A program made the translations under genes and the position numbers. A DNA stretch of 64,000 nt, taken from Bryoerythrophyllum caledonicum (lineage: Eukaryota > Streptophyta > Bryopsida > Pottiales > Pottiaceae). The notes under the pieces are model-generated. The model did no database searches. It was not told the origin of the DNA and was given only the letters and a program-made list of their open reading frames with translations. Within the stretch, counting starts at the first letter, position 1. Each line of letters opens with the position of its first letter. The stretch spans positions 16,922,867-16,986,866 of the forward strand of contig OZ020523.1 of assembly GCA_963971425.1 (NCBI GenBank), read 5' to 3'. Below, piece by piece: positions 10,146 to 55,200 of this stretch.

Positions 10146-10146
<1 letters not shown>

Positions 10147-30191: not shown

Positions 30192-30525
30192 TTAAAAACT
30201 TCAAGAAGGCGTCTGTAAACATTTTGCATATTTACAAGTTGCTTATAATTGGATGTGTAAAACTTGGTCATTTATACTCAATCATGTACTTATGCATATT
30301 TGGAATATGCTAGTCACTTGTATTTGTAAGCAAATAGTACATATATATATAATATATATTTGACAACTACGCATAGAGATAGGACCTCAAAATTTTGTGC
30401 TCCTCGAAACAAAGAGCGATACCAACTAAACTATTTATACCAAGCATACATTTAATACACTACATATTTAGGCTAAGAGAAAAGTTGGAAAAATTTACAT
30501 AAGGGTTGACCTTGCAAATCAGGAT
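30192..30525. other. AT-rich spacer
   Basis: Nothing is recognised except a short AT repeat near 30344-30360. It lies just outside the terminus-like sequence at 30526. Confidence 0.35.
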
Positions 30526-30864
30526 TGCTATCTTGCGAGTGGCGAGCGGTGAGCAAAGAACATTTCAGTTTTTTTCTTCTAAATTTTTTCTTAAAAATTA
30601 AAGCAATGCCAATGGTTGTGGATTATATCTAGATATGACTGGCATATGAAAAATAAATTGTAAGAACCTACCATGACAAGTTTCTTAAACACATTGTAGT
30701 TCAAATTTTTAAGGCTTTTATTGCTACAATTCTTCAAAAACTTGAAACAACATTTATGGCTGTAGAGTTTGGTTTAGGATATTTCGACATGTCGTAAATA
30801 ATTATTTGGCCATGGGAACATCAACTACTTTTTTTGAAATATTATAGAGATTTATTGAAGGAAA

Positions 30865-30955
30865 TACCTACGTGGTACCTAAGTCATACTCTAGCGATAT
30901 CTACATGATACCCGCGTAGTACCAGGATAATATCCATTTAATACCTAGATGATAC
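30865..30955. repeat. Degenerate 11-bp-period array (locus 2)
   Basis: About eight 11-base units, read best on the minus strand as RGGTATYANNT (for example GGTATCATCT, AGGTATTAAAT, GGATATTATCC). It is the same family as the arrays at 11188, 43885, 44690 and 60478. Confidence 0.55.
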
Positions 30956-31263
30956 CGTTTATGTTTGAACTACCATGACTAGAGAAGCAGTCATACCCTT
31001 GAGGAAGAGTATCCGAAACTGATTGATGGGAACAAGTGGAAACCATGTAAACATGATAGAGATGTTACAAGTTTGCAGAAAATATTTATAACCAAACGAA
31101 CAAAAAAGTACTATGAGAAGCAAATTTTCATCAATATTGGCATCCTTTTATTGGAGGAATTCTAAAACATTCAGAGACTACTTTCATGTGGTTTTGAAAT
31201 GAAGGTACAGTAGATTGTCTCCCATGCGGTTATGACCCCTTAACTCCCGTCCACTTGAAGGAT

Positions 31264-31960
31264 CTAACGAGGCTTGTTTGGATTTTGAGGCACAAATGTA
31301 ACCATTCTTGAATTCCTTGGCCCGCGGTAGCCCCAATCCCTCCTCGACTCAAATATGAGAGGTGCTTGATACCACAACGCTAAGTCATCAGAAGGCCATG
31401 GATTTGCAGCAATATTGCGCCGTCGGAGTGTTGTGAGATTATGGGACTTCTTAATGAGTCTATCGAAGGCGTCAAGCTCCTCGATTGTCAGAGTTTTTAG
31501 GCCACGGTCAAGGAGTGCAACATTGTCCGGTTCGCAATTGCGGATCCATTGACTCCTACTAAGCCGATGCCGACTTCGTAAACATGCGTGTAAGATTCGA
31601 TACTCCTTCAACCACCGTTGTGCCTAGGTAGTTCTTGCGACGTTTCCATCAGAGAACTCTGTCTCCACCCTCTGTATAGCTAATCGCAGGGATGCTTCCA
31701 CAGCAGTGCTATCAACAAGTCGCTAGATCTGAAGCTTAGATGTGACTCTGACGGGCATTACTTGGAAGATATGTGGCAGAAGGGCATCAAATCAAAGTGG
31801 ACTTACACAAGTCCCATCTAGTGGCAAAAAGTACGTCTTCCAGATTGCCGCCAAGAGAGTGCATTCGTTTGTAGACATGTTGAAGTCTCCAAGAAACAAA
31901 GGTGTCGGTGTAGTCGTCCATAGAGGGACATTCATATTGATACCTAGTATTGTAAATGGA
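31264..31960 (-). pseudogene. Decayed gene of unknown family, at least two exons
   Basis: On the minus strand, coding-like text runs from about 31960 (YECPSMDDYTDTFVSWRLQH) to a GTAAGT donor near 31800. It resumes at an AG acceptor near 31733 and continues to the stop at 31264. The second part is about 155 codons, ending RRDWGYRGPRNSRM then VTFVPQNPNKPR. It carries two in-frame TAG codons, near 31728-31730 and 31624-31626, where CAG would give glutamine. A short stretch, TLTIEELDAFDRLI, faintly recalls SdhE/SDHAF2 assembly factors, but the diagnostic RG motif is absent and I do not assign it. It lies downstream of and parallel to the ParB-methyltransferase-like gene. Confidence 0.35.
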
Positions 31961-32210
31961 TTGAAAACATAAGAACAACAATAAACAGAATACCATAAGC
32001 AATAGTTCCTTACCACAACCTCAAGGTACAATAATAAGCATAGAGCTTAACACTCTGCATCTCATCCCAAATAAAGTGCCAGAACAAGCTCAACGTCCTA
32101 GACAACAACTTACAACTCCAAATGTAGCTCGAACAAAACCTCTTTTGCTAATGAATCAGACTATGAATCCACCTTCTAGGATTCAACTTATATAGGTTTA
32201 GGGTTAGATA

Positions 32211-33240
32211 CACTATAAGAAACTCGTGTTTTTTGTGACAGGGCAACTAACGTGCAATTATGTTTTGTGCAGCATCTGGCACGTCAACGTTGATGTCCAA
32301 AAAAATCCGTTATAATTGACATGCGAAAAACATGCCAAAATCTCAAAAAACAGGCCCACGTTTTTTAAAACGTCACAAAAACTTGGGGGTTGAAGGTGTT
32401 AAAAATCTGCCATGTGGCTGCCACGTCGCGTCCACGTCATCGCCACATGGACGGGCAGTGCCACATCCCCAAATTTTTCATCCGGGCCCTTGGTAATGTG
32501 GCCCATGATGTGGCGCATGACGTGGCATTAGATTGTGACTAGGCTTGCATACGTGGACCCGCCATTTTATGACGTGGCACCTTTAAAATATGACGTGTCA
32601 CTTTTTAAAATATGACGTGGCATGTCCAATCAGCATAGTTTAATGCAATAATTAATTGTGGACAGTGTAAATTGGGACGTCATTTCTAACACGGTATGTT
32701 TTCTGTGACGTTCGTTATGACGTTTTCTGTGACGTTCGTTGAGATGGAGGTCACCAAAAGTAAGCACCAAGTCAGCAAAAGCAAGTGCCATGTCACCAAA
32801 AAGAAGCGCCATGTCATCAAAAAGTACCGTATCACTTTAAGTTTCAAGGGTAATTCAAATTCATCCAAATAGATGGATGAAAGTGAATCACTCTTGATTC
32901 AAGTGTGATGAGATAGGAGAGAAGGCCTTACATATATATACAATGGGATGCACAAGTGGTGACAATCCATATGGGATTATTGGATTTGTCATGGTATTAG
33001 CCTCGTGTTAGCATAAACATTAAAATGTCACAGTAGACGTCCATCCAGACGTCTGTTCCAACATCCTTTTTGCCTACGTGGCAGCTGATTTCAACCTTGC
33101 CTACGTGGCACAAACATTTTTAAAAGAATCCAATTTCTACCTTGCCTACGTGGCTCAAACATGTTTTTTGTGATGTCAGTAAGGACATCCACGTTTTTTG
33201 TGACGTCAGTAACGACATCCACATTTTTATTTTTGTAGTA
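32211..33240. mobile_element. CACTA-like non-autonomous element, about 1030 bp
   Basis: The left end is CACTATAAGAAAC and the reverse-complemented right end is TACTACAAAAAT, close to the CACTACAAGAAA ends of plant CACTA elements. Subterminal repeats are dense: TTTTTTGTGAC, TGACGTCAGTAA (right side) and many ACGTGGC words. There is no transposase frame. The flanking bases (ATA and ACA) do not form a perfect 3-bp duplication, and the last base of the right end has changed from the expected G. Confidence 0.55.
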
Positions 33241-36200
33241 ACAAATACAAAGGAATCAAGACTCCTCTGCGGATAACTAATCAAAGTTCACTTCTTCCAA
33301 AGAACAATCACCACTATCCAAACCACTAGCTTGAGCCTCAGTGTCTATGAACAGACATGTGACAGACCTTTGTTGGGCTACCTTTGAAAGACGTGGAGGG
33401 GATGCAAGTGCAGTCATTGCATCTGCAACACCCGCATCCCAAGGTGCCAAATGATACAATCGAGGCGGACTCTTCACCTCCTTCGACAAATGAGACAACA
33501 CCTCCACATGAGTCGAGAGCGATGAAGTCATCAACGACAAAGACGACTGCAAAAAGGTAAAGTCACAAGTATGTTTTAAATCATGAATCAATTAGAATTT
33601 TTACACCACAATGCAAAACTGCAATCTAAAAAGCAAAGAACTTACTTACAGCGTCTCTTGGGAGCGGTCTTCACTTCCGGATCGTCGTCATCAACCTCCA
33701 ATGGGCGCTTGCGAGAACCCACCTCCACCGCCGATGCCGGTGTCGACTCCACCTCCACAATATGAGGAATCAAAGGGCGAAGGATTTCCTCAACCAAATC
33801 TGTGTCCTCCTCCAATGCCAAGATGTGGCGCTTGAGGGCCTTGCAGGCCTTGATTGACGCCCCTTCAGAAAACAAGTATGTAAAATAAAATAAGCAACAC
33901 ACCTGAGAGATAAACAAAAATAATAGAAGTACAAAATATACTAACCAGTAGATGTTGTGATGTCTAGCACGATGTCGTCCTCCTAGGTACAAAGATCAAT
34001 AAGGGCCTCCATAAGGTTGCTAGACTTCTCTCGTGCACCACGCCATGGCTCGTTTCTCCCCGCCCTCATGGTCAGGCTGTCCTCTGTGATCAGATTGGTC
34101 AAGTGACCATCTGAGGACAACTGAATCCCCTCCAACTGCAGCTCCATTCTATCATGGAAAGAGAAAGGAATCGCCGGCTCCAACAACCTAACAAAGCACT
34201 TCACTAGGAAGCACTTGTGAGTGCATCCAAAGTTGCCATCGCGAGTGAGTAGCAGCCCGTTGATGGCAAACCACTTCGTCTCCTCTACGAATCCCGCCCA
34301 ATCTGCCCAAGCAAGAAGTTCATTGGAGATGAACTTCGAGTCCGGGTAGAACACAATAAGTGGCACGCCGTCACGAAGCAATACCCCAACCATCTCGAAA
34401 GCACGGAAAATCCAAGGAGATTCTTTCTTTCCCCCTCCCATAATTGGGTTGGAAGTTTATTCCAAACCGGCACGTCACATCCGTCATCTATGCCACGGAC
34501 ACGCAAATCCTCCGGGACGTTGAACAGTACCATGTCCGCCAAACCAAGTGGGCAATCCAATGACTCGTGGCGCCGGAGCTTCAATCCCGAGTGCTCCTTT
34601 AGAAACTCACACATCTCAATCCAAACTGGCGGATCGTCACCCTCCACAACGACACTATCGAACAAAGGCATAATGGAGAGTGCACTCTCACACATCACCT
34701 TCACTGCAACAGAAGGCTTTGCAAGGTCAATTACCGGGATGGAGTAGACCGTCTGTGAAGGCTTTGCGACAAAAGTAGAGGGGCGGCTGCTAGCGGAGGG
34801 TGATACACCCATGGTGAACGCCACTCGTTGAGGGACTGCAAATCCATCGCGCACTCCAAGCTGGAGCTCTCTAGTCTCCTTCTTCTCCTTCTTTGTCATT
34901 TCCTTCTCCAACCTGGCAGCCTCTCTCCTGCATCTTCATCGCCGCCTTCGCCGCCTTCTCAGTAGCCTTGGCCTTGGCAATCTCAGAAAGCTCCTCGGCC
35001 GCAGCCACGGGAGCCAGAGGCAAAGGAACCACACCTTCATCTATGGATGAGACATGGACAGATTCGCAGGCCACACGTAACTGAACCTCGTCTGCTGGGT
35101 GGGGTCGGCCTCCTTCATCTCCAAGTACCATGGACATTGGACGAGGTGGTGAACTGAGAACCGACGCCTCAGAGTATCTGTAAAGATGCAGTCCGGTGCA
35201 AAAGTGTCCGTCCACTTCGTGAAGCGGATGGGCAAATCTGCGGAGGTCATGACTCCACTCACTACCAGCACCCTCCAGAAGTATCGCATGACGGCCCGCT
35301 TCACAACCTTCTCGCAATCTTCCTACGCCATGAACTCCTCCCCCTTCGAGTAGGAGCCGCCCTTCCCGATGTGGCTAGAGAATACCTTCGTCCATAGCAT
35401 CATACTCTTCGCCTCCAACCACTTTCCATTGCTTGGAATGGGATTTAGAAGCCCTCCTGTCTCGAGGACAATGTTGTCCTCGAGGACAATCGAAGCAAAG
35501 AGCTTCTCGCACTCTTCCTCAAGCTACAATAACGTACACAAATACTTAGAGTTTTAGAGGAGACAAAATGGTTTTAAAAAATAAATAAAATTGAGTGGAT
35601 GATTGTACCCCAGCCCAGAATGCAACCTTGTCGATCCAGCCACGAAGAGCCTTGTTTGAGGCCGGCGACGCAGGAAAGTTATACTCGGATCTACTGCCTT
35701 TGCTCATGTTCCACCATCTACACCAACGTCCCTTAAACCTGGCAGCTACCTTCGCGGAGGCAATCAGCTGGAGCTTCTCTGCCGTCATCTCAGGCCGCAC
35801 TTGGTACACGTCGAAATGACGATTCATCTACAACATAATAACGTCAGTAAGAATTGAATGTCAACAATCACATTCCAAGAATTTAGTGGATACAAATCAA
35901 ACAATGGTGACTAGAACTCTACCTCCCTGAAGAAATCCTCCCCGTTAGTTAGGTTCGCAATTGCCAACATCCGGTTCAGCTGAGTCTGACATGAGGTCTT
36001 CTTCTTCTGCACGGCGTTCGCGCATCGACTCACCAACTCTGCAGCATTGCCAAGTCGATCTTCGCCAACACCCATGACCAAACTATCTTTAAACTTATGA
36101 ATTTGCTCCTCCTGGACCGCAATAAGATCACGCTGGAGAGAACAAGAATGTCATTAATCATTAGAGAACGTCAGACGAAGGTAAATTTTATATAGCAATT

Positions 36201-37629
36201 GATAACAAAAAATTTAGGGTGGTTAAATACATACCTCACTCATAAGCTTCACAAACGTCTCTAACGTCATATGATACCACTTCTTCACTCCCTTCTTCGA
36301 CCACTCGAGCACACTAGCCTCATAATCGTCTTCACTGATAAGTCCCTTTAGCTGCTCGAACTCCAAAAGCCCAAAGTGCTAGATTCGCTTCACTTCATGC
36401 GTGAGGTGCTGCGATACATGATCGAACTCCTTTTGTTTAAAAAATTAAACAATTGCAACAAATAAATATAATATACGTTCAACAATTGAATGAGCTGAAA
36501 TTAAATATACAAAGTGACAAACTTGGAACATACCTATTCCAATCTGTCATTGTGATGAGGAATATGTGTCGATTTTCCATGGATGGCTCGATTACCACAG
36601 CCCTCACGGGCTGATGGAAGGTGTAGTCATTGGGGTGCAATTGAGAAATCACCTCAGACCATGCGATGTGGCGGTGATTGCCATCCTACACAAAGAAGAA
36701 CTTATCGGAGAATGCGGCGTATTCTGGCCGATTCTTTAGTAAAGCTTCAAACTTTCGATCCTCTTCCTGCCAAAGTCGGGACCACGCTGCTCGGTCTGTA
36801 GGAATCACATGCTTCTCCATCAACGAGAAGTTCTTCAACGACACATAGAAGCACGGCGCATGCGGATCCCGGTCGGTAGCCCTTCACAAACTCTCCCTTC
36901 AGCTTCTCCACATCACTTCTTAGTGGAAGCCTGACCTCAGTCATGGAAACAATGCGGCACAAAGGAATGTGGAGGTCACCAATACAGGGGTTCGTGGAAC
37001 TCTACAAAACATCGTAAGACGTTCCACGAATAGACCTCCGCATTGCTTGCAATGTTGAGGTCAAGCCAAGCTCGTCCACAAGGATAGTGATGCTAGCCTC
37101 TGTGCCCTCATCCACCAGCCCCATGCCTACCTCCGTAGAAGGGGGTTTTGGCCCGGTAGCCTCCATCTATAACAACAAAAAATAGTCAGAATTGTGAAGG
37201 ACCTATATAACTATGCTACAAACAGATTATCTCTCATGACCCCGAGTATTGCCACATATTCCCTCCCATAGGCTATATGAAAGTTGATCCCCACCTAACA
37301 TGTCATTTCTCTCTTTCCCCTCTCCAGACTCCATCAACCCCGACCCTTAACCAACAACCAACATTAGATGACTAGAATACATTGCACCATTTCTAACATT
37401 GACACCTACCAAAACCAAAACTTTGAAGTTTAAGAACACACCGTGTTGAGGCTTGTTCCTGTTGTGCGCTCATCCCAATTGCTCCCTCCCTCACCAAGTC
37501 CACCAAAATGTACAATCTCCGTACCTCGTAACACCTGCACACACGATAGATAGACATTACATAACATTCATGACAGAACAACCAACCTTCAAATTTTCAG
37601 CTGCATAGGGTTGAGTAAATTTTTGAAAA

Positions 37630-38355
37630 TTAGTGACCTTTAAAACGAGTTTCGGATCCAAAACCCATTTCGAGGGTCAATTTTTTTTCAAAATTTGAGA
37701 CGCTCGAAACGAGTTTCGGATCCGAAACTCATTTCGAGGGTCAAGATTTTTTCAAAATCTGTGACGCTTGAAACGAGTTTCGGGTCCGAAACTCATTTCG
37801 AGGGTCAAAATTTTTTCAAAATCTGTGACGCTCGAAACGAGTTTCAGTCCGAAACTCATTTCAAGGGTCAAATTTTTTTCAAAATCTGTGACGCTTGAAA
37901 TGAGTTTCGGGTCCGAAACTCATTTCGAGGGTCAAAATTTTTTCCAAATCTATGACCTTCGAAACAAGTTTCAATCTGAAACTCATTTCGAGGGTCAAAT
38001 TTTTTTCAAAATCTGTGACGCTCGAAATGAGTTTCGGGTCCGAAACTCATTTCGAGGGTCAAATTTTTTTTCAAATCTGTGACCTTCGAAACAAGTTTCA
38101 GTCCGAAATTCATTTTGAGGGTCAAAATTTTTTCCAAATCTGTGACCTTCGAAACAAGTTTCAGTCCAAAACTCATTTCGAGGGTCAAAATTTTTTCAAA
38201 ACCTATGGCACTCGAAACGAGTTTCAGGTCCGAAAATCATTTCGAGAGTCAAATTTTTTTCCAAATCTGTGACCTTCAAAACGAGTTTCAGATCTGAAAC
38301 CCATTTTGAGGGTTAGAAAATTTTCAAAAAATTTGTGACCTTCGAAACAGTACAG
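37630..38355. repeat. Palindromic minisatellite, about 11 units of about 63 bp
   Basis: Each unit holds a near-perfect palindrome built on GAGTTTCGGATCCGAAACTC, flanked by CGAAAC and TTTCG, then an A/T spacer ending AAATCTGTGAC. The long frames across it on both strands are repeat artefacts, because 63 is a multiple of three. It lies in what I read as an intron of the ParB-methyltransferase-like gene, between the exons at 38525-38435 and 37513-37440. Confidence 0.9.
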
Positions 38356-38599
38356 CCCATATCTTCACTTTTATGAAAGAACAAGAATACGTTGACGCGT
38401 CCCACAAGACCCGAGTATGGAAGAAAAGAATACCTCTTTGGTTGTATTCTCCATCCTCTTTGCGCGAAGCTCCATCTCCCCCACAAACTGTATTGAATGC
38501 CTGCTACGCTTCACTTCAACCTAGAAAAATGAACTCTCTATTTCACTCGTATTTGTTCGTCACATTGCAATAACCCAATGAAAAATGTGTTCGGTCAAC

Positions 38600-38695
38600 G
38601 TTGAAGCGACGGGCGTAAATAGGCGATCGTGAAATTTCGGCCCGGCCAAGGCCCGGTCGGGCTTAAACTGAGCGATGGCCTATTTACCCCTGTCC
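38600..38695. repeat. Short inverted repeat, GC-rich hairpin
   Basis: GGGCGTAAATAGGC near 38609 pairs with GCCTATTTACCCC near 38680. The loop holds a second GC-rich inversion (GGCCCGG...CCCGGTCGGGC). It lies between two inferred exons of the minus-strand gene. Confidence 0.5.
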
Positions 38696-39593
38696 AAACT
38701 TCGTCCCATCCGGAGCCCTGGATTTGGGATTTAGGGTAAGTTCGTTGTTTCGGTTTAACACGGTGAAGAAGAAAAACACATATTGACAGAGTCACAAACG
38801 TACACAGGACGTGAAAGCGAGCACGATCATTGTCTACAAAGAGCGCTTGTCGTTATACACTTGCACATTATGGCATTTACTAAATTTTAATGAACGAGAG
38901 CTACTATGAAGCCATAATGTTGACAGGGACAAGGAAAATAGAAGCATTGACTGAACCTTACCTGTTTCAGTGGGCACCCCCCCATCTTGGCTTATACAAT
39001 TGAAAGGTCCTTTGCGCTTCCATGATGATTCTTTGCTTTTGTAGTGGGTCTCTTATAGAATTGATGTTTTTCTATCCTCGACGACTCTGATGGATTACCT
39101 AGTATTCCATGTGCCTCACTTCCATCGCTACTTACGCATTCAAACTCATCTACATTGTCTTCAGCACCCTCATTTCCATGCAATGAGCTCTCCGAGGAAC
39201 TGGACATAGCATACTCATTTGACATGTTGACTTGTATCCGCTCTTCTTCGTCTCTATTCTCACGAGAATGCACGCAACTAGGAATGATCTGAATAACAAA
39301 TAGAGAGACAGGAGTGAAAGTCCGAAATTGATATATGTGATTCAAACCTCAATAAATGGCCAAAACAAGTCATACAAAACAAAACGTACCTCAAACCGTG
39401 ATTGGACATGATGTGGTCCTCCGTGAATACTTGACAAATCTCTAAATCGCTCAATCCATTCTGGTGTCTCGACTTCTCTATTCTCGACAGCCAACAATGC
39501 CTCCTATTGTTGTCAATATTTTCGCGCCCGCGTCTGCTTCGGATTAGAGAAATTAGTTGTTCGTCTGTTACGTCCGCCTCTCTTAGTCATCAT

Positions 39594-40197
39594 CCGTAAA
39601 AATACCTATCTCCTCTCCACCTCTCTCACTCAACATCCCAGACTTACTTACTAACACGCTGAAAAACTATGGCCAGTGCTCCCTCCACTCAGTCCTTGTA
39701 TCATTAGTCTATTTCTGCCAGTTTCAATCCTCAACACAATAGTAAGTTCTATATCAATGATTGTTGTCAGACTTTATTTTGAATCTTGATTGTGGAGTCG
39801 TATAATGACATACTTCTTCTATTTATTGTTTGCGCCGATGCAAACTTTGGATTTTTGAACTTAAATATGGTACAACGTGAATAACGACGATAAACAAGGC
39901 TCACAAATAGAACATGATTTTAAACCTCCTAGGGAAATTCTATAAATATTTTCTACTATAATTTATGGCATTGCTATACAAAGTTTACTTTCTTTTTGAA
40001 TTTTTCATATTTGACTCTGACGAGGCCAAAAGGCTGCGGGATGATCATTTATTCTAAAAATGTATGATTTCTCTATATTCAAAATTATGACAACTACTTT
40101 ATTTCAATGGAGAATGCAAATCATTTATTCCTCTCTTTCACTGAACAATAGTTGTCACTTAGCAGTCGCTCTCGCATCTATTTTGGGGTCAAAATAC
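39594..40197. promoter_or_regulatory. Divergent spacer between methyltransferase-like and transposase genes
   Basis: About 600 AT-rich bases separate the inferred ATG at 39593 (minus) from the ATG at 40198 (plus). If both genes were live they would share this as a two-way promoter. No specific motif is distinct. Confidence 0.3.
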
Positions 40198-43100
40198 ATG
40201 GCGTCTCTAACTTCCTATCAAGGGGGCATCCTACTTGTCATGTCTGTAGGTGATGATGGCACTGTCGTTGTGCCCGAGTCCTTGCTTTCTATTCGTTTTA
40301 GTTATCGGAGTGGTACGGTTCATGTTGAGCAGGAGGTCTTTGATAGTGATGGTGTTCACCAACAGTCTATTTATCAAGTGAAAGATCGAGATGCAGACGG
40401 CTTTGTCTGGAATTTGGATCGCGATTCGTTCAAAGTGTACAGTGTCTCCGATGCTCAAATGTCCGGTCATGCGTCAACTGTCGTTATGTCTCCTCCGGAC
40501 AATTCTGGTGATACAGTGCTGGTACCTAGTTTAGGCACGAGCTCTATCCCAAGTGTCTATATTCTTAGCGACACAGAGGATGAGGACCTGTCCGATAAGA
40601 ACCTAAAAGAGTCAAGGAACCCCTTCAAGTCTCAAGAATCTGTTCATCCTGCTCTTTCTTCCCCACTTCCTTCAAGATCTCAAATGTCTCCAACATTTCC
40701 ACAAGAAAACCTCCAGTCCATCCCAATTCGAGAAACGTCCGTAGCATACTGATGCATGTCCGTCAAACATGTAATAGGAGAGGGTCCAGGTCCGAGTTGT
40801 CAAAAATTGATATTGATAGTCTGGATTTGAACCATGTGAAGTATCTGCCACCAAAATATGATGGAGACATGATATTTGAACTACCACCGCTCCCAGAGGG
40901 AATTCCTGTACAGTTTGGAGGCGGCCTCGACGGTATGAGTAAACAATTTGACGGTCACACGTGGTACAGAACAATGACTACAAATATCAAGAATGATTTA
41001 GGCCTCACGTACCGCAAATCAGTATGTACAGGGCATTTACAATGCGCAAACATCCTTTGTGACTATAAATGCATAAACGAAGGACGTACAAATCAAACCG
41101 AGTGGAGCGGATTCCCCTTCACCCCATTTCCACTCAACAGAGCACCATCCGACAAATCTACACTGGCATGTAAGCTGTGCCAAACCCCTCCAATTTGTCT
41201 TGCTCTTTCTGATGCACGAATTTATTATGTGACCTCTAGTGATCCTGAGCGCCCAGGTGCTGCTATCCATTTGGGACATCATCATCATCTAATCTCCAAA
41301 GGCGTCGATCAAATGGCAATGGACCTCATGCACGACTGCGTTGAGAAGGAAGTTCAGCGTACGCCCAAGGCTACTAACTCAGCGATTATCATGGCTACGA
41401 GCAAGAATTTCCTATCCGACTACTTGATCCACCCCAGTTCCGCATCGTCGAACCTCGAAGTAGCATCTATGGATGGTGTCCTGGATCAGTTCGAGACTCT
41501 CTCGTCTCCGAACATAAGGAATCTAGTATCAACGTGCAAGAGGTTCGATAGAAGAGGGAAAGGAGTAATAGACAACATCATGGAGTTGAAGGAGTCGTCC
41601 AAGTTTATATTCATCCATGAAAACAAGTTCCCGGGCCAATCCAAAGGTAAAATTTTTGTTTTTAAAATGTCCATGGATCATCCAGGTAGTGGTGTAGACC
41701 TTGTTAAGCGTATGCAACCTGGAAATGACCTTGAAGATTGCTAATCATGTCAAACGGGTAAAGGACTGGACTACTATGGCATGTCATGTGTATGACAGTA
41801 AGTATTGTAGAGTCATGACAATCGCCATGTGTGATATGCAATCCGAGGATGCTCAAGCGCAACAACTATTTTGGGAGAACTTAAATGATACAATGAAGAA
41901 CCATGGCCTTGCGGAGACAAACTTCAAAGGCTTCATGGTTGACAGCGCTGGAGCAAATTGGCATGCCGTACGTCGAGTTTATGGCAGCGGAGACATGGAC
42001 AAGCCCATGGATAATAGAGAACGAACATGTTTATTCCATTGGACTAAGTGTCTTCAACGAGCCACCACCAAAAACATTCTACATGGCTTTCAAGAGCAGT
42101 ACATTACTCTCTGCAAGACCTGGAAAAATGCGAAGACACAAGAGGAGGCTGAAGCTCAATACAACGTAATTCGAGCGTGGTAGGTATCATCTGGTGCCAC
42201 TACGGAAACCAGGCGTCATGCTCTAGAAGACTGGATGGCGTTTTGGCACTTTCGTTATCGAAAGTGGGGCGGCGCCATGCAACTTGTAAGTCCTCTCCCA
42301 ATCTTCTATTATTTACATTTCAATATATTCTAGTATACTCATTTGAAGTATGTGATGACAATTGGAGTGTCTTCATAGGATCTCACGCTTGACAAAAGAG
42401 CCGACATGCCTTCGTGCAACCTTGCCGAAATAGTCCACAACCGTTGACTCCAACAATCCGGGAACACAATGACATGTCTCTACGCTGCAACAGTAGACGA
42501 CCTCATCCGTGCCTTCATGCAAATCACGTCGTATCGGGCATGGTTGAAAGGAGGCATGTCAGGAAAAGGTCCGGACAAAGGGACACTTCGGTTGCGATCC
42601 GCACAACGTTCGGGTGATCCAAAACTCATAGTTGAGGCTGTAAGGAACTTCCCTGGGGCCGAGGATCTACAGACGAGGACGGGCGGCCTAGAAGGTGTCG
42701 AGATTTTTGGGTCTACCAAACGGAAGCTGACATGCTACCAAGGTCTAGCCACGATTCCCACCGATCGGATACGGTGAACTACTCTATCCCTCGCGATGGC
42801 AGAAGAGTCACTCAGGCGCGCATTGAGGAGGTCCTCAGTGGACATGACTCTGGAGTCCAGCACACAACATCCATTATGGAATCAAAGTGTGATCCATCCA
42901 AGTGGCACATTGACCACCTCCAGAAGAAGTCCGCTCGAAAATGCCAAGCATTGCAAGCTCACACTGCGCAGCCCTGCAACACAAAAATTGCGCGTGGGAA
43001 TCATGGAACTCCAGCCCCCACATATGCCGGTATGAAGAAGGATTACAGATCCCCACGGAATGTTGCTACTGAGTTCTGGTTTTGTCCCGATGATATTCGC

Positions 43101-43622
43101 CGGTGTGTTAAGGGATCGAAGAAACCGTTTGTAGTGGATTGGCCAACAGTTCCAATGACATGGCCTGTAAAGCGTGGCACTAATTTAACACTTAAGGGGG
43201 TACTAGCGTTGGAGGAAGCAGGTTTCCAATTGCAGCAACGTGGAGCTGTTTCTCCACGAAGACAATTTCAAGTGTCTATGGACGTGCCACTTCCGCGATC
43301 AGACTTCCCCACTCCACCGAATCCGAATTCTTACCACACCTTTCGTCACGGCTATGCAATTCATAGAACGACGGATGCTCTGCTAGGGTGTACGTGCCCT
43401 GATTTTTTGAAGATGCAATCGGAGGCGTTGGGGAAGAAGGGGAAATGGATGTATTGCAAGCATGTGTACTACGTCTTACGATACCTATGTAAGCTAGACT
43501 ACCATGAAGACTTATTCATGCATGCTCCAAGCTACAGCTTTAATGAAGTCATGCGCATTCTAGAGCTTGCCAACATCGCTGAAGAAGCGTTAGAAAAGCA
43601 AAGAAGTCATAGTTTTTTTTAA
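40198..43622 (+). pseudogene. Decayed Mutator-like transposase with SWIM zinc finger
   Basis: Pieces in order: 40198-40752 (N-terminal text MASLTSYQGGILLVMS), 40752-41741, 41720-42285, an intron 42286-42378 (GTAAG...CATAG), 42379-42730, and 42727-43622. A zinc-finger-like cluster (CANILCDYKC, CKLC, LGHHHH) recalls the WRKY/GCM/FLYWCH fold found in many MULE proteins. A catalytic core follows: WTTMACHVYDSKYCRVM with the first Asp, FMVDSAGANWHAVRRV with the second, then TCLFHWTKCLQR. The C-terminal SWIM finger is CTCPDF...YCKHVYYVL. Frameshifts near 40750, 41740 and 42728, plus stops at 42181-42183 (TAG) and 42445-42447 (TGA in place of Trp in VHNR-stop-LQQSGN), make it inactive. It is divergent from the ParB-methyltransferase-like gene. 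Confidence 0.8.
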
Positions 43623-43884
43623 TATCTACAATTTTTTATTGCTCATAGGTAGTGTCGCGGAGTACATGTTAAATTACCATTGGATTTCATGACTATAATT
43701 AATACTCATCGAAACTCAATTAATGTATCTATTGATATTGATATGAGCAGTAAATTGTCATACTCCACCTCCACTACCATTTGCAATGGTGAATTTTGGA
43801 CTCAATTTTTTCAAAATAGACGGTATTAATTTCTTTGGAAAATTTCTAGGGATTTGTCTACGTCATACTATGAATTGCCAATGT

Positions 43885-43985
43885 GATTCCCCGGTAATAC
43901 ATGGATGAGACCTATGTAATGTACTGGTGATACCCGTTTCATACCAATGAGATACCCATGTAATACCTATGCAATATTCGTCATG
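43885..43985. repeat. Degenerate 11-bp-period array (locus 3)
   Basis: About nine units, minus strand, for example AGGTATTACAT and GGGTATCTCAT. Confidence 0.55.
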
Positions 43986-44689
43986 TCTAAATCACTACGA
44001 TTTATAAAAAAAATCGTACATAGTGTACGAACTTGACTACTTTGTACAGTATCATAGTATGACGTTGTCATTTACTATGCAAAAAAACTCTTTTGAATCT
44101 TAATATGACTCCTTTCAAATGTAGAGGTTTCAAATTTTTTGAATAAAAAATAAATTAGAATTCAAGCACGGGAAGAAAAGAAGGCCTACTTATTAGAAAA
44201 AAAAGTATGGCAGACGTGACCACGGCTATAGGCTACTTTCTTAAATTAGTAAATTCTCCAAAATATGTCTCCAAAATATACAGTTTCACTAAAATTACCC
44301 AAATTTTCACATTTTTCCAGAAAGAATGACGTTTTTTTCTCCGATTTCGGAGATTTTTATGCTCACCGCTCACCGATCGTTGCTCACCGCTCACAAGATA
44401 GCGTCGCTAGTATTACATCTTACGTTACCTTAGTAAAATGAATTACAAGGAGGACTTATTCATGCATGCTCCGAGCTACAGCTTCAACATAGTCATGGAG
44501 ATCCTAGAGCTTGTCAATATTGCTACCAAAGAGTGAGAAAGGCAATGTTGTTGTACTTCTCCAAAAAATCTAAAATTTTAGATTGCTTCGACGTAGAGTT
44601 GCAAAGTCATAGATGTAGACATGAATACAATTCATGTATGTACTGAGTTTGTTATGAATAATTAAGTGGCATACTCAACATTGAATTTA

Positions 44690-45210: not shown

Positions 45211-47075
45211 TAACCGGAGATTTGGGTTTATTGTAGGGTCCCGGTAGTAATTTTTTGAAGTTACTGAAGTAGTTATGGGTAAAAAGTAGAACTATGGATG
45301 AATCTAGACAGTGGATGAAACTGTCCAGTCTGGACTTTAGATGAACTGACTGGACTTTGGATGAAACTGTCCGGATAGGGATGTCATCCATCCGGACATT
45401 TTCATCCATTGTGGAGGATTAGGGCTTGGAGGGGGTAGAGAGTCACCCCTTTGGACTTGGGGACTCTCTCTCTTTCTTTTGGGGGTTGGTCTCTCTTGGT
45501 ATGTTGCAACTAGAGTGTGTAGGTGTGATTAGAGAGCTAGGAAGTGGAGGTATCGTGTGAATCTGGAGTTGTAGTGAGTATGGAAGAGGTTTATGGAAGT
45601 TTGAGGAAGTAAAGCAAGACTTGGATACTATCTACTGTATGTTGGTCTTAGTATTGTGAATGTGTGAGTAGATCTGGTTGTTCAAAGAGCATTCGTGGTG
45701 AAACTTGGTTGTGGTTATTGTAGATCTGGCCTAAATACACTAGATCTGGTATGGATCTAGCTTGATTTGCTGAACCCTAATCGAATCTAGCGAGTTAGAG
45801 TTAGAAACAAGTCCGGATTGTTGTGGGTATAGTCTTAATTGTTGTAATCTAGTGTGAAAACTCCCGATCTGTGAGTTAAACCTAAGAAAAACAATAGAAA
45901 CAAAGTCCCAACTAACTTCGAATTCAGATCTAGATTCAGATCTAGGTTGAATTTGGAGTTATAGACCCAGTAAAAGTCATGTTCCGGACTTATATCTATT
46001 GTCCTAAAACATCAGTTTGATTGAGCACAGAGTAGATTGTCTTTCACTTGGACTTGAGGTGAAATCCCCCTTTAACAGTTGTTCTGTTGCAGATCATTCC
46101 AATGTTTTGTAATTGATAATTTGAGATCTTTAAAATAGTGAAACTCATTATACATAGCAACAAATGTTTTTCAATTTGAATAAATTAATAATTTATTCAT
46201 TATAAAGGTCATTCAAATAGTTGACAAAGAGAAAATATGTCATCAATGCCTGAAGGTTGAAAGCATTCTAAAAGTATCTCTACTTTGTTGATTAAAAATT
46301 GCGGAGATGAACTATTTGAGAATGTAACTGTAGGATCTTCTTTTAAACTTCTATGAGATGATGTGATAAAATTTGATGAATTTTTACCGTACGGATTGAA
46401 AGATGATTGTAGTCAAAGTGAAAAGATTTGTACTCCACGAGTACACTTGGTCCTTTAAGAGTTAAAATCCTTAAACGTCAGAAGGTATTAGTGGTGGCTA
46501 TAGTATTCTACATGTATGGTGTTGTATTTGGACATAATAAGGTTCATATTTTGAAATGACCTTCAATTGAAAATGCTAGTTGAAGAATATTCAATCCAAA
46601 GGTGTAAGTCTTGCTAAACTTTAATATAAAAAATTGTATTATATAGAGTAAAATATGTGCATGTATATACAGTTCGTAACTATCATTTACGAGTTGAGCA
46701 CATGTTATACATTGTAGAGATTCAAGTTGTTATGATTGGAGCCGTTGTTATGGAGAGTAATGATAGATTTGTATATGGTAGAGGCCACTTGAGATTTATG
46801 TCATCAGAGCATCCTCAATAGATGCCCTAAACCTGGGCGGTTGGGCCCTCAAGTGGTAATGAAGGGTTCTGTGGCAAGCCTAGAAAAATCATGAGTCACT
46901 TGAATGGAATCGCGCCTCAATCCCAACCTGTAATTGGGACTTATACAACTTACATTTTTGCAATTTTCATTAGAGAAGTTCCCCTTCCAGCCTTGTTTTT
47001 TGCAATAATCACTAAAGAAGTTGTCTTTGCAACGACGGTGAAGTTCTTGAACCACTATGTAGTCAACCGACGATT
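45211..47075. other. AT-rich region with repeat fragments
   Basis: At 45296-45412, the words GGATGAAACTGTCC and GGACATTTTCATCC repeat in direct and inverted form. At 46449-46465, GTCCTTTAAGAGTTAA looks like a right end of a TTAA element whose left end I could not find. At 46490-46690 lies a copy of the ~180-bp repeat that forms the arms of 29519-30191. No gene is seen. Confidence 0.4.
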
Positions 47076-47296
47076 GCTATCTTGTGAGCAGTACATGGTG
47101 AGCGGTGTGCATAAAACAATCAAATTTAGGGTTTAGGGTTAAGGGTTCAAGGTTTAGGATTTATATTTTAAGTTTTATGGTTTAGTAACACGTAAAACTT
47201 TCATTATTTTTTAAGAGAAGTAAAAAATAATTATTTTTCTCCTATTTTGTTTATACTCACCGCTCACCACTCATTGTTCACCGCTCACAAGATAGC
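47076..47296. mobile_element. MITE of 221 bp with GCTATCTTGTGAGC ends
   Basis: The 14-base ends GCTATCTTGTGAGC are perfect inverted copies, followed on both sides by GGTGAGCGGTG-type text. These are the same termini as those of the putative large element at 30526-44405, so this may be an internally deleted derivative of it. Confidence 0.65.
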
Positions 47297-49219
47297 ATGG
47301 CTCCCTTCAAAAGCGCTGGCCAAAAATAAGGGGTCCTCACTAATAGCAAACCTCCATTTGGAGTTGAATGGGTGGGTTGGATACACCCCAATTTTATAGC
47401 TATTGTTCACCAGATTTGGTTGGTTATGGAAGGGATTATTGTAGTACTCCATACCAACACCAGCTTGAAGTATTTCTTTCCCTGTGGAATCAGATTGTTG
47501 CCCTTTTTAATCATTACACTTTTTTTTAATTTTTTGATTATTAAAAATGGCTCTAAATATCTATAAGGAGCTCAAAGAAAAGAAAGGTAGCTACATTTTT
47601 GGTACAACATGCAAATTCTTTTTATTTTCTCAAAGGGTGCTAAAACGAGTTTCAACTCAATGAATTAAACCCTTTAATGCCTAAGTGGACCATGAGGTCT
47701 GAGAAAATCTACGAGCATAATAGATCATGCAAAACACCATCTACACAAAGGTACATTTCATCACAACCTTACTTGACATTGTAGTTTGCCAATGCCTACA
47801 TCATGGAGATGGTTATAAAGTTGTCGCCAAGACCGACGTGCAATTTGAAGACCGCAACAACAACGGCCAATTATGGGAAAAATTACGTCACCGAGAGCAC
47901 AAAATTGACCCTCTCAAGGCTTCATAGGCCTTAAAGACCACCAAACTCTTCTAGACTTGAGGAGTGACCACCAAGCTCCTTCATATCTAATAGACATCAA
48001 GAGTAAATAAATAGAAAATTGTCAAACCAAAGCTTTGTAACACCTCTTCTAGTAGACAATATTAGATAATAAATAGTGATAAACTTTCTTATTTTATGTG
48101 GAAAAGAAAAATTGTTTCTAATTCCCTACTCAACAAGGTGTGAAAACTAGATGGAGTGGACTAAAATTTCTAAGTAGGAAATGACCTTCAAATTGCAAAG
48201 TGGTTGGAAGTTTAGGTGTGAGTTTGATTATGCATTAAAATATAGTAATTGTTGGATCTCAAATGGTAAAATACACAATATTTAAGGCACTGTCAACATC
48301 TATAGTCGCGGATAAAATCTGTAGACTTTTATATGCAACTCACAACCATACTCCTGGCTCTTTTTATCAATTTCTCCACTATAAACAATATCTCTTAGGA
48401 GTTATTTGTGAGGTCGCGCAAAGATATCAAAAGTTTTAACATCTCTGCATAGTTTTAATCACTGATATTAGCTCTAAATTTTTACAACTATTCATACACT
48501 AAAAAAAAATGGTGTTAAAACATAGTATTTGTGAAAACGTTACATGATATATGAAAATTTCTTGAATTATGTTTCAAAATATTAACAATGTCAACTTGAA
48601 AATCACAACCAATGTGCATAATGGTGGTAAAAAAAGAAGCTCGTAATATTGTTCACATCTCCCACTTAGGATGGAGACATCTAAGGGCCAATGTATCAAT
48701 ACCATATTTCTAACCATATCACATCATACATGCAAATGTGACATTTCAAGAATATCGTATTCTAAAATTCATAGTATACCATGAAATCTCCTTGCTTGTC
48801 AAAGGCAACTAAAACTTCCTTCTAACTTGAATAAAAATGAGTAGTATTAAAACTCAAGAAGCAGTAGCTTCTTGAAACTTATGGTGCCTTCATAAATAAC
48901 TCTAGTGCCTCAAGAGAGTCTTTTTGGGAGCTCTAGACGAGTCTTGGAATGCAAATCAACCCAAAAAAAACGTCATAACCAGCCCTTGGTGGCCACAATA
49001 TTCTACATGTATAATGTTGTATCTATAAATGATAAGGTTCAAATACTAAAATGACCTCTAGTGAAAGATGTTAGTTGAGAATCTTCAATCCAAAGGTGTA
49101 AATCTTGCTAAACTTTAATACATCTTTTCGTATAATTCTACATAATAAAATACTTGCATGTACAGTGGGGTGACACCCAAATTGGCACCTTGTGCAATTC
49201 CAGGGATAGTGCCCACACT
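47297..49219. other. AT-rich region without gene
   Basis: At about 47665 a single TTAA-element-like end (TTAAACCCTTTAATGCC) has no visible partner. At 48990-49165 lies another copy of the ~180-bp dispersed repeat (shared words ATTCTACATGTAT, CTTGCTAAACTTTAATA). The short frames have no motifs. Confidence 0.4.
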
Positions 49220-50283: not shown

Positions 50284-50760
50284 ATGGCAATTTCCGATGA
50301 AATTCGTGGACGTATTATAGGTATGAGTGAGGGAGGGAGTACTCAAGTTCAAATTGCAGCCACTATCAAAGTTTTCGTTAGAACAGTTAAGAGGTTGGTG
50401 AAAAAATTTAGAGAAAATGGAACTTACAAGCACGAACCTTGTGGTGGAAGTCACACTACAAAACTTAGTGATAGAGATGTGCGTAGTATTTTGCGTTCCT
50501 CAAAAAATAACCGTTGCGCGTCAGTATCAGAGATTGTTAGTGTATGCCCTACTCCAGTGTGTGGACGTACCATTCAAAGGCTCTTACATAGAAGTGACAT
50601 TTTCAGTCGAATTGCAGTCAAAAAACCTTTTTTGACACCTCGTTACATGTATCAAAGGCTGATTTCTGCTCAGAAGTACCGTGGATGGAGCGCAGAAGAT
50701 TGGGAGCGTATTATTTGGACAGATGAATCTACCTTTGAAATTGGGAAGAATTCGAAATGA
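50284..50760 (+). pseudogene. Truncated Tc1-type transposase
   Basis: The frame gives 158 residues, about half of a Tc1 transposase (usually about 340). Residues 1-110 form the paired-like helix-turn-helix DNA-binding part (MAISDEIRGRIIGMSEGGST, then TVKRLVKKFRENGTY, TTKLSDRDVRSILRS). Then comes the start of the DDE domain with its first Asp (RGWSAEDWERIIWTDESTFE). A TGA follows at GKNSK and no second or third catalytic residue can be read downstream. The text stays clean up to the break, so the truncation may be recent. Tc1 proper, as opposed to plant mariner-like elements, is unusual in plants. An origin outside plants, for example from a fungus, is an inference from memory of family style. 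Confidence 0.8.
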
Positions 50761-52236: not shown

Positions 52237-55200
52237 TTAAATTGGTGATCCACCACAGAAACTTCTCGTCGACTGTAAGAAGCTGGCGCTGTTGCGGCCG
52301 CGAGCGAAGATGTTGAGGCCCGGGGAGAGAATGGCGCACGGGTCGAACAGCTGCTTGTTGTGGACGAACCGGTCCCATTTGGATCCGAAGTGGGGCGTCC
52401 ACTTGCTGCGGTCTGCGTAGTGAGGCAAGTACTGCTTGCAGTGCAGAGACTCGCAAATGCGCAGCACGCTCTCGTTATACTCCAACATCTCCGTCAGCGT
52501 TGGGCCTCCCGCGGGTAACTTGTTCCGCAGAAACGCCACAATGTAGAAGATCTCCTCTTGGCCCTCGGGTACCGCCACTGAGAGCCGCTTGTCCCACCTG
52601 ATGTCAACCACAATCTCTCAATGTTCAGAATCCATTCTCAATCTGAACCACTGGCTATAGTCGTTGGAGTTATTTGTAAATTAAAATAGTTTGCATTTGA
52701 TTTACTAGACTTTAACAGCGGCAAATCATATTTATGGTACCTCATGTAAACTCTTTTTCCAGTCTCGAAGATAGTTAAACTAGTTCAGTTTATGTTTAGC
52801 GATCACCAAGTTCTTCTAATTGGAAGACCACGAAGCTCTTTTAATAATTTAAAAGAATTTTCTCGAAAGTCCTTTTCAGAGAGGATAGAGTGAGATTTGA
52901 ATGTGGATAGAAAGAAAGCATGAAGAATTCCATGCTTCCTTTCTTTGCACCAATGAAATGCTTGAGCAGTTATGGCAATCAATGCTCTTGGGCAAGCTAA
53001 TGCTCCTCAACACTTGCAAGTTCCTAGAGAGTTCCTAAAGAGTGGCTTGGCCAATCAATGCTCTTCATGCAAGAAAATGCTCCTCCATAGTACCCCAAGT
53101 TCCTAGAGAGTTCCAAAGAGTGGACCAGTGATTCCCCAACACCTTTCCCAACCCAAGTCACCTTGTCCATGTGGTCCTGGTTACTAACATGAGACCATAA
53201 AGTAGGGAGAGTAGTGAGAATGACAAATGAATAAAACGAGGGGTACCTTGTCGAAATTTTAGGTGTCTAAATTCTGTGTTGACCACAATTATGTGTGTAA
53301 AATTTAAGAAGAGTTGAGATTTTAGAGGTTATCCGAGGAGATGATCACAGAAGCTTGGACTTACTTTGATTTGTTCATAGGGTAGACAAGAATGGGGCCG
53401 CTGAACTCTTGAGTGGCAATGGGCTTGAACACAAGCGCGTCAAAACGCTCAATGGAAGACGCAGGCACGAAGATGTTGAGCCAGGGATGCGGAATCTCCC
53501 ACAATCCGTGCTCTCGCAGCTCCATCTCCACCTCATGCACTCTGTCCAGGAACTTGAAGTAAGTCGTGTCCTTCTCAAACAGCAACCCGCGGTGGAATCT
53601 CAATGGCGCCAACATGCCCTCCACCACCTGAATAACACTCAACAAAACAATAATCAACCAATCATGTCTGCAAGACTCAAACTCAGTAGGAGGCTACATT
53701 GGCGGTTCCCACATGAAATTTTTCTGTAGTCCACCTCCATCTACATAATACATAGAACGTACTTAATGTTATGAAAAATTTGCATACTTGAATTGCACTT
53801 AGAAGTTGCATCTTGAAATTTTCGGACGAAAGTCCGAAACGCACCGAGCTTTTCGCTTCCTTTTAAAGCTTTGGCAGTTTTGAAAGTCCTCTCTTAACGG
53901 AATGTACAATGCATTTCAAGACTCTAAAACTCATCTTCGCAAGCATGATGAACTTCCAACTTGAACATCTCCACACCGCCAATTAAAAACAAAGATAGGC
54001 AACCTTTAGACTAGATTTCTAGACCCACATTAGATGTGAGGATGCGAAACTGGAATCATGGCCTGTAAATCTAGACAGCAGCCACGTAAGTGAGATTTCA
54101 TCATATCCTCAACTGTGTGCACAGTCAGTTGATAGCCCTCAACCAACCAAATTGAATGAGATTATCCGCGAGATCAGTACTAATAGATACACCAACCGGG
54201 TGTACGGGACCCGGCGCAATGGCGAGAGAGGCGACGAAATCATTGGCATGCATGAGACAGTATGGCCGTCGCAATCACGGCGCAGGCAGAGCACAATGAT
54301 CATGGTCGCATGCAGTACTGCATTGAATGCGGGCCCGAGAGAACTGACCTGATCAAGTGTGGGAAGCGCCGCGGCGGAGTACGCCTTGGTAACCTCCAGG
54401 CAGTACATGACGGAGCTCGCGGTGGCGGGGATCATGGCCGCCGAGATGTCGCTGCGGGCGAACGGCACCGAGCCCCACCCGTTGATGGGGTTGGCGTCAT
54501 TCATCACCACGAAGCCCTCCACGAAGTCAAACGGCTGGCTCGCGCCGATGAGCGCCTCCTGGTCCGCCTTGAACGTGACGAAGTCGGTGTACAGCACGCG
54601 CATCCAGCGGACGCGCTGGGGCGCCGTCTCCAGCACGATGCGGGCCTTGGCGATGATGCCAAACTGGCCGAGCCCACCCAGCACCGCGAAGAAAAGCTCG
54701 GAGTTCTCGCCCTCCGAGCATTCCACGACCTCACCCTTTCCGGTGACCACCTCGAGGTGCATGACGTTGCTGACTTCGGGTCCATGGCGGAATGACTGCC
54801 CGCTCACACCGCCGTTTGACAAGGTGCCGCCTACGGTGAGGTAGAGGTAGTCCGTCCACGACCGCGGCGCCAGCCCGTATTCCAGCGACGCCTTCAGCAC
54901 GTCCACCCACATCTCCCCACCCATTGCCTCCACGAACGGCACGCCGCCGGAGGCCGCGTCGCCCAGCGGCGCCACCTTGATCCCCTTCAAACTCGTCATC
55001 TCGATCACAATCCCATTCCGCGCCTGCCATCACACAACATGTCCCAAACACCAACAATTCAGGTCGTTCCGCATAATTCTCAACATAAACCGATGTCCCA
55101 TCATGATATGCATCGTGATTCTACCTGTGACTGGCCCGAGATAGAGCTCCCGAGCCCGCGCGCAGCCACCGTGAGCTCGGACTCGGACCTGGCGACGGCC

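Follow-up and report, generated by a model that had tools for sequence, protein, structure and literature searches.

ParB-parS systems pair a protein of ParB/sulfiredoxin (Srx)-like fold with repeated palindromic sites located near its own gene. The VANDAL transposons of Arabidopsis counter silencing via their own sequence-specific VANC proteins (PMC10398659). In this study, we analysed a window of 64,000 nucleotides from Bryoerythrophyllum caledonicum (contig OZ020523.1, positions 16,922,867 to 16,986,866) and found that it contains one decayed copy of a multicopy DNA transposon, which carries a gene (ORF-P) for a protein with a predicted ParB-like and a methyltransferase-like module. No published description of such an element was found in the open-licence literature.

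Ends, copy number and classification of the element

The element is approximately 13-13.9 kb in length and contains two genes, ORF-P and a transposase gene, in a head-to-head arrangement (Table 1). The two blocks shared by the window copy and the copy on contig C7 are 79% and 71% identical. The pattern of the terminal inverted repeats (TIRs) occurs 521 + 545 times genome-wide, compared with 0 occurrences for the control. Mutator-like elements are expected to have a target-site duplication of 9-11 bp in addition to TIRs; the C7 copy is flanked by a duplication of 10 bp, and nine matching bases are visible at the copy on contig C14, while a search at the window copy found none. Other repeats are seemingly nested inside the window copy at about 30.6-33.2 kb.

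The C-terminal exon of ORF-P is present in at least 150 places in the host genome (437 Mb), some of them within intact genes. Searches with this exon and with the exon carrying the DGNHRHIAW box each yielded 150 scored matches (of 1,193 and 1,171 candidates, respectively).

The transposase gene is frameshifted in the window copy and complete in another copy, L036 (851-4423), where it contains one intron. No Pfam match above chance was obtained for the transposase. PF10551 did not match the two ORFs of L036, and its 138 matches in the genome all lie away from the transposases of the window, L035 and L036. The transposase is probably a divergent Mutator-like one with a SWIM-type end, but may instead be of KDZ/Zisupton type, and the element is classed no more narrowly than as Mutator-like.

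Table 1. Features of the transposon copy in the window
Feature	Position	Strand	Remarks
Whole transposon copy	30520..44408	.	TIRs at both ends; two blocks alike to the contig C7 copy
TIR, ORF-P side	30520..30554	+	CAGGATTGCTATCTTGCGAGTGGCGAGCGGTGAGC; same end in six further copies
ORF-P exon 7, fast-evolving C-terminus	33259..33501	-	Comparison with L030
ORF-P exon 6, last part of the methyltransferase-like domain (ASIKACKALKRHILALEED), plus a basic tail	33648..33860	-	75% identity to L030
ORF-P exon 5, with a helical region, a basic linker and the bulk of the methyltransferase-like domain	33946..35523	-	Comparison with L030; PF01555 (intact relative)
Altered catalytic motif NVPE in place of DPPY	34510..34521	-	DVPE in most relatives
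ORF-P exon 4	35609..35821	-	76% identity to L030
ORF-P exon 3	35923..36132	-	61% identity to L030
ORF-P exon 2	36235..36435	-	75% identity to L030
ORF-P ParB/sulfiredoxin-like exon	36536..37115	-	tblastn with L030 exon; predicted fold of relative P0011
DGNHRHIAW box, predicted nucleotide/phosphate-binding motif of ParB/Srx fold	36659..36685	-	20 relatives
Tandem array of 64-bp palindromic units	37643..38329	.	10.8 copies, 85% matches; candidate binding sites
Exact palindromic core TCGGATCCGA	37716..37725	.	Inside a 20-bp perfect palindrome; chance expectation in the window 0.02
Pair of conserved exons upstream (FSNPKQTRARK...; acidic and serine-rich stretch)	38953..39593	-	tblastx with L025, L027, L028 and L031
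Transposase gene	40198..43622	+	Frameshifted; by eye, a DDE-like motif and, C-terminally, a SWIM-like one (CxC...CxH)
TIR, transposase side	44360..44408	-	GCTATCTTGTGAGCGG exact at 44387-44402; shared with the C7 and C14 copies

Structure and conservation of ORF-P

ORF-P has seven exons, which together code for about 1,100 residues. It runs in the opposite direction to the transposase gene, and comparison between subfamilies shows it to be under purifying selection. The peptides quoted in an earlier sequence-only reading of this locus all lie on the minus strand in the order it gave, and their recurrence in the genome (150 scored matches per exon) is far beyond chance. The segment from IPLCRI to DVEKLKGEFVKGYRP is in the ORF at 36747-37001; KSSNLMEALIDLCT, in 33983-34456, is followed by a TAG codon and then by DIVLDITTST, and GASIKACKAL lies beyond a GT-AG intron, in 33642-33995. 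IPLCRI and DGNHRHIAW were assigned to a single exon, which holds for intact copies; in the window copy, however, they are in different frames with a frameshift and stops between them. The ParB-like exon of this copy contains one frameshift and two stops, with DGNHRHIAW directly after a TAG, and exon 5 is also frameshifted. The span proposed for the gene does cover ORF-P with its upstream exons, but the whole element is the larger interval given in Table 1. The upstream exons are perhaps the N-terminus of ORF-P or else a separate small gene; the acidic one had no tblastx match in L027.

The same reading proposed a single gene with introns, whose N-terminal part is ParB-like and whose C-terminal part resembles a beta-order methyltransferase; this agrees with the fold prediction and the PF01555 comparison described below. 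Both modules are found within one gene in many host copies and in L039, a contig of another organism that carries an intact and more distant gene (exon 5 of this gene shares no more than 69% identity with any of the 79 scored host-genome matches). In the protein collection, queries with exons of an intact copy detected relatives about one exon long (20 for the DGNHRHIAW exon and 10 for the C-terminal exon), whereas full-length ORF-P gave no match.

The ParB-like module

A ParB/Srx fold of the N-terminal exon is supported by prediction: the model of the relative P0011 backs a ParB/sulfiredoxin-like module. In the 20 relatives, the G, N, H and H of DGNHRH are almost invariant, and by eye this box may correspond to the conserved G..R nucleotide-pocket box of ParB/Srx proteins. 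PF02195 (ParB_N), one of two profiles put forward for checking in the sequence-only reading, matched none of the 20 family members, and hhalign profile-profile comparison with seven phage ParB domains, including two ParB-methylase fusions, gave no significant signal. Because of these two results, the module is assigned a predicted ParB-like fold outside ParB_N membership. PF02195 likewise had no match in a set of seven phage records. A PDB sequence search with the profiles of both modules detected no relative; a match to ribosomal eL24 (E 0.0018, 49 profile positions) was taken as chance.

The methyltransferase-like module

PF01555, the other proposed profile, scored 26.1 bits (E 9.8e-6) on an intact relative, against a cut-off of 26.7. 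Among the 10 A3 members, 3 gave a match at E<=1, the best of them at 0.01, and hhalign of the C-terminal part against it gave an E of 6e-6; the window's own pieces had no Pfam match above chance. The predicted model of this part has a pLDDT of 47. The beta-class motif order is retained overall, but D-[VIM]-[PH]-E replaces DPPY ([DNS]PP[YFW]) in all nine database relatives covering the site, and DPPY is absent from every genome copy inspected. By eye, RGAREK stands in place of HPTQKP, and in most relatives S or T occupies the position of the first glycine in the SAM-loop GxG. The catalytic motif had been described as worn; it is indeed altered, but as a family trait and not through wear of the window copy alone. 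By its sequence, the module is a relative of the beta-class N6/N4 amino-methyltransferases, and it is not classed as an active enzyme because the catalytic [DNS]PP[YFW] is missing.

In phage records, tblastn of the methyltransferase end yielded 151 records at E<=10, with a best E of 5e-3 among the matches listed; 16 of the 20 listed are named methylase or methyltransferase, three are without annotation and one is a tape-measure protein. The three records matched by the ParB-like exon were taken as chance. Pattern-limited scans of viral contigs detected no relative of the ParB-like exon or of the C-terminal part.

Palindromic tandem repeats upstream of the ParB-like exon

A new finding of this analysis is the presence of palindromic TCGGATCCGA repeats directly upstream of the ParB-like exon. 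In the window, the array has the upstream exons on one side and the ParB-like exon on the other, and it includes one exact core and four cores with one mismatch. In total, 70 exact sites were identified at this position in 12 of the 14 loci checked, including that of the other organism; genome-wide, there are 2,527 occurrences compared with 179 for the control. The array periods vary (64, 139-221, 243 and about 520 bp), and the 10-bp core, which contains GATC, stays constant while flanks and period change, in the other organism as well. These are noncoding tandem repeats with a family-specific motif, as in VANDAL elements, and they may be the docking sites of ORF-P.

Possible function of ORF-P

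In our judgement, there is an even chance that ORF-P is a self-recognition protein for its own transposon, acting at parS-like palindromes and similar to VANC in role but built from other parts. We infer binding, nucleotide use, spreading and anti-silencing: ORF-P would bind the tandem palindromes, load there via a nucleotide-dependent ParB fold and perhaps slide or spread onto the adjoining DNA, with the methyltransferase-like module binding DNA or a cofactor instead of acting as an enzyme. As a result, the control region of the element would be shielded from silencing, or transcription or transposition would be controlled, as by VANC for VANDAL. If so, this would be another solution to transposon anti-silencing, one that combines a ParB-type fold with a retired DNA methyltransferase, and a case of bacterial DNA-management parts turning up in eukaryotic mobile DNA. 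The palindromic core is an exact DNA target, and binding, nucleotide dependence, spreading and an effect on methylation are therefore directly testable.

More tentatively, the element might carry a eukaryotic counterpart of ParB-parS, in which a nucleotide-switched ParB-fold clamp, with the former methyltransferase as sequence reader, would load at TCGGATCCGA iterons, spread and keep the element transcribable. Such a clamp would represent a selfish self-marking system in plants that works on the bacterial partition principle.

It is rather unlikely that ORF-P is instead a transposition cofactor that helps the transposase to find, pair or nick the ends, with the ParB-like module as a nicking nuclease and the palindromes as transposase/cofactor sites. 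According to the accessible parts of the respective reports, integration apparently depends on mudrB, the second ORF of maize MuDR (PMC6446971), and non-specific DNA nicking is described for a ParB-methylase of Bacillus cereus (PMC5512222); the arrays, however, lie in the interior of the element, upstream of the ParB-like exon and away from the TIRs. We consider it improbable that the array is a mere expanding satellite or a promoter unrelated to ORF-P, whose role would then be elsewhere: its widely differing periods are typical of fast-changing satellites, but the same core persists in spite of them. An active methyltransferase of unusual chemistry that marks its own element, for example at the GATC in the centre of the palindrome, would accord with the retained beta-class order, but the three motif changes described above make it highly improbable. 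The earlier view, in which a phage-like ParB-methylase fusion gave rise to a host plant gene that has since decayed, retains almost no probability and is already contradicted for the window locus, because the gene is multicopy, bounded by TIRs and linked to a transposase, and intact copies exist; the module order does equal that of the Streptococcus phage Javan128/Javan486 proteins, but no close phage relative was found in viral contigs or phage records and the phage ParB domains gave no profile-profile signal.

Comparison with known systems

As far as the accessible text describes them, VANDAL elements resemble the present element in carrying an accessory gene and noncoding tandem repeats with a short family-specific motif, and in the fast divergence of these repeats between families (PMC10398659). 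The motif of the ORF-P element differs in being a palindrome with a shared core, and VANC, set beside ORF-P by description, is presented in that text with no mention of ParB- or methyltransferase-likeness (PMC10398659). The predicted ParB/Srx-like fold of ORF-P, with repeated palindromes near its own gene, parallels ParB-parS systems; sequence similarity is undetectable, and the sites are candidates.

Like ORF-P, the available descriptions of ParB-methylase fusions (Bce_0392 of Bacillus cereus, PMC5512222; Javan128/Javan486, L047/L048) place the ParB-like part first and the N6/N4 methyltransferase last. In the Javan128/Javan486 proteins, unlike in ORF-P, PF02195 detects the ParB domain and PF01555 matches over its full length. 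ORF-P differs from the bacterial and phage fusions in its helical insert of ~40 residues, long middle region, introns, altered catalytic motif and eukaryotic transposon home.

Mutator-like elements with extra ORFs, in the part of the account available, share the 10-bp target-site duplication, TIRs, SWIM-like motif and accessory ORF (PMC6446971), whereas the transposase described here is undetected by PF10551 and its accessory protein is of a type for which no description was found in the open-licence literature. Fungal DNA transposons with TET/JBP dioxygenases, as outlined in the accessible text, likewise carry a protein related to DNA-modifying enzymes, although of another enzyme family, and in ORF-P the catalytic motif is altered (PMC12730594).

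A repeat family carrying ORF-P and a transposase gene

The sequence-only reading had proposed a ParB-like and a methyltransferase-like domain in one gene, and the peptides it quoted are present on the minus strand in the order claimed. They belong to the gene that we call ORF-P, which is part of a repeat family. The host genome (437 Mb in 894 contigs, the window being C11:16922867-16986866) is that of a plant: rbcL was found in three places, with a translation that by eye resembles land-plant RbcL. In the host genome, the C-terminal exon and the exon with the DGNHRHIAW box (ParB-like exon) each have at least 150 scored matches (of 1,193 and 1,171 candidates, respectively), and the plus-strand transposase ORF has at least 122 (of 3,810). 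Among the matches listed, 81 of the 150 C-terminal matches have an opposite-strand transposase match within 16 kb upstream; conversely, 81 of the 122 transposase matches have an opposite-strand C-terminal partner, none has a same-strand partner, and for one the C-terminal match lies downstream, which is the wrong side. Random placement (200 rounds, with the sizes of some contigs being estimates) gave a mean of 0.4 pairings and a maximum of 3. A same-strand ParB-like exon lies upstream of 78 of the 150 C-terminal matches listed, at a median distance of 2,557 bp.

Transposon structure

The ORF-P-bearing repeat is a transposon. Homology between the copies on contigs C7 and C14 starts and ends sharply, and the C7 copy has inverted repeats at its ends (CAGCGACGCTATCTTGTGAGCGG and CAGGATTGCTATCTTGTGAGCGG) and the TSD TGATATATGT on either flank. 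Nine bases match between the flanks of the C14 copy, the tenth being visible on one side only. Both ends were found in these two copies and the ORF-P end in four further copies, and a genome-wide search for the TIR pattern (≤1 mismatch) gave 521 + 545 sites, against 0 for a reversed control. No TSD was found at the two ends of the window copy.

By eye, the transposase of locus L036 combines a DDE-like core with a SWIM-like end. A Pfam search of this protein gave nothing above chance, and none of the 138 genome matches to PF10551 lies at the transposases of the three copies examined (L036, L035 and the window). Judged by sequence features, the element may be called Mutator-like, because it has a 10-bp TSD, TIRs and the SWIM-like end.

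Judged by eye, the stretch immediately past the window copy encodes the C-terminal end of a further copy of the same transposase, which points to nested or rearranged elements. A 223-bp piece farther on is probably a non-autonomous relative (MITE).

Coordinates and properties of the features described (L, fetched loci; C, contigs)
Feature	Location	Coordinates	Remark
Transposon copy	window	30520 to 44408	TIRs at ends
Transposase gene	L036	851-2992 and 2993-4423	one intron
Two further conserved exons upstream of ParB-like exon	window	39593-38953	conserved with upstream parts of L025, L027, L028
Transposase C-terminus (gene 3' end), by eye	window	44409-44540	past element end
Probable MITE	window	47075-47297	TIR of the element on each side; arms of 36 nt with 78% complementarity
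Cytokinin-dehydrogenase-like frames	window	15258-16244 (+) and 54142-55029 (-)	~38 kb apart
158-aa ORF	window	50284-50757	by eye Tc1-type transposase-like (MAISDEIRGRIIGM...)
Trinucleotide tract	window	9586-10150	>500 bp, several open frames
Core cluster	C1	4101476-4102829	six palindromic cores in 1.4 kb
Array	window		period 64 bp; palindrome GAGTTTCGGATCCGAAACTC
Array	L025		period 139-221 bp; palindrome ACCCTCGGATCCGAGGGT
Array	L030		243 bp x 17.9; palindrome ACCCTCGGATCCGAGGGT
Array	C7 type		period about 520 bp, from site spacing (tandem-repeat finder, limit 500, reports none); palindrome TGGCTTTCGGATCCGAAAGCCA, perfect palindromes up to 104 bp
Palindrome around core	L039		GGGTCTCGGATCCGAGACCC
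Palindrome around core	L057		ACTTTCGGATCCGAAAGT

Gene structure, relatives and selection

Intact natural copies of ORF-P consist of seven exons with GT-AG introns, and the spliced L030 product has 1,117 residues, counted from an assumed start. Among the 12 loci examined, three (L025, L030 and L039) have no in-frame stop across the seven exons, six (L023, L024, L026, L027, L033 and L034) have a stop confined to the fast-evolving last exon, and L028, L031 and L032 have other in-frame stops. L039 is a 4,691-bp contig (CADCWO010000058.1) filed under a cyanobacterial MAG, with the same ORF-P exons in the same order. Its exon 5, which encodes most of the methyltransferase-like domain, shares no more than 69% identity with any of the 79 scored host-genome matches (3,438 candidates); therefore, L039 comes from another organism, and it is a probable eukaryotic contamination of the MAG. 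In L039, as in the host, a single gene contains the two modules. The 30 protein-database relatives (P0001-P0030) show 41-81% identity to the nearest fetched host locus.

Between subfamilies, six pairs gave a dN/dS of 0.12-0.19 for exon 5, at dS values of 0.9-1.9 that are partly saturated. For the ParB-like exon, dN/dS is 0.09-0.10 in the two pairs with estimable dS, the other four being saturated. Three young pairs gave 0.46-0.76 (exon 5) and 0.30-0.75 (ParB-like exon). ORF-P stayed functional for long periods and decays once its copies have inserted.

The two conserved exons farther upstream, a basic one (FSNPKQTRARK...) followed by an acidic/serine-rich one, may form a small third gene of the transposon. 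They may instead be joined to the ParB-like exon by splicing, but the ORF-P reading of L039 starts at its own ATG, directly downstream of the L039 palindromes.

Methyltransferase-like module

PF01555 matched an intact ORF-P relative with an E-value of 9.8e-6 (26.1 bits, slightly below the 26.7 cut-off), and 3 of 10 relatives matched at E ≤ 1 (best 0.01). In hhalign, the profile of the methyltransferase part matched six phage amino-methyltransferases (E 6e-6, probability 85), and that of the ParB exon gave no match to the same six. At the DPPY position of the phage alignment, the nine database relatives that cover it (all but P0010) have DVPE (6), DIPE (1), DMPE (1) or DVHE (1). Host copies mostly have DVPE, with DVLE in L025 and L032, DVPK in L029 and NVPE in the window; DPPY is found in none of those aligned at this position. 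Compared by eye with the phage alignment, HPTQKP is replaced by RGAREK and the SAM loop DFTMGSG by DLTASTG. Given these three altered motifs, we would not expect ordinary base methylation by ORF-P. The predicted structure of this part was too poor for use.

Palindromic arrays

Tandem arrays whose period differs by subfamily lie upstream of the ParB-like exon, and the subfamily palindromes share the core TCGGATCCGA. Cores were counted in the 14 loci that hold this region (L023-L034, L039 and L057; the shorter L001-L022 were left out). Twelve of the 14 contain exact cores, 70 in total, and all of these precede the ParB-like exon. No exact core was found in L031, which has four one-mismatch cores; in L029, which has no ParB-like exon, neither kind was found. 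L030 and L057 each have a single one-mismatch core within a coding exon. The window contains one exact core (0.02 expected) and four one-mismatch cores inside the element, and one one-mismatch core outside.

Genome-wide, there are 2,527 core sites versus 179 for a reversed control. Judged by the matches listed, 25 of the first 50 sites are no more than 10 kb away from a match to ORF-P or the transposase; counting TIRs as well raises this to 35 (random expectation 1.8, maximum 8). The listed matches and TIRs leave 15 unexplained, six of them in one cluster. The core cluster on C1, with no ORF-P, transposase or TIR nearby among the matches listed, is perhaps a further subfamily.

Other features of the window

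The two similar cytokinin-dehydrogenase-like frames look by eye like a duplicated host gene. There are also ABC-transporter-like frames (named by eye), a trinucleotide tract and a Tc1-type transposase-like ORF; Tc1-like elements in plants appear to be the topic of PMC4054914.

Possible role of ORF-P and comparison with known systems

ORF-P may recognise its own element at the candidate palindromic sites; co-evolution of a protein and its target would leave just such a pattern, in which the core stays constant and the flanks change. The main rival reading, in which ORF-P is a transposition cofactor, seems to us rather unlikely. In its favour, excerpts of the sources indicate that integration of MuDR apparently depends on mudrB (PMC6446971) and that nicking of DNA is an activity of a B. 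cereus ParB-methylase (PMC5512222).

Self-recognition by ORF-P, the reading that we prefer, joins two analogies. The predicted ParB fold beside iterated palindromes resembles ParB-parS, and the pairing of an accessory protein with motif-bearing noncoding tandem repeats in a Mutator-like element resembles VANDAL/VANC, in which, according to excerpts of PMC10398659, VANC binds the motif-bearing tandem repeats of VANDAL and removes silent marks. Among the open-licence papers searched, we found no eukaryotic transposon described as carrying a ParB-like/methyltransferase-like protein. DNA transposons with an accessory self-recognition gene are a known kind, of which the ORF-P element would be a variant.
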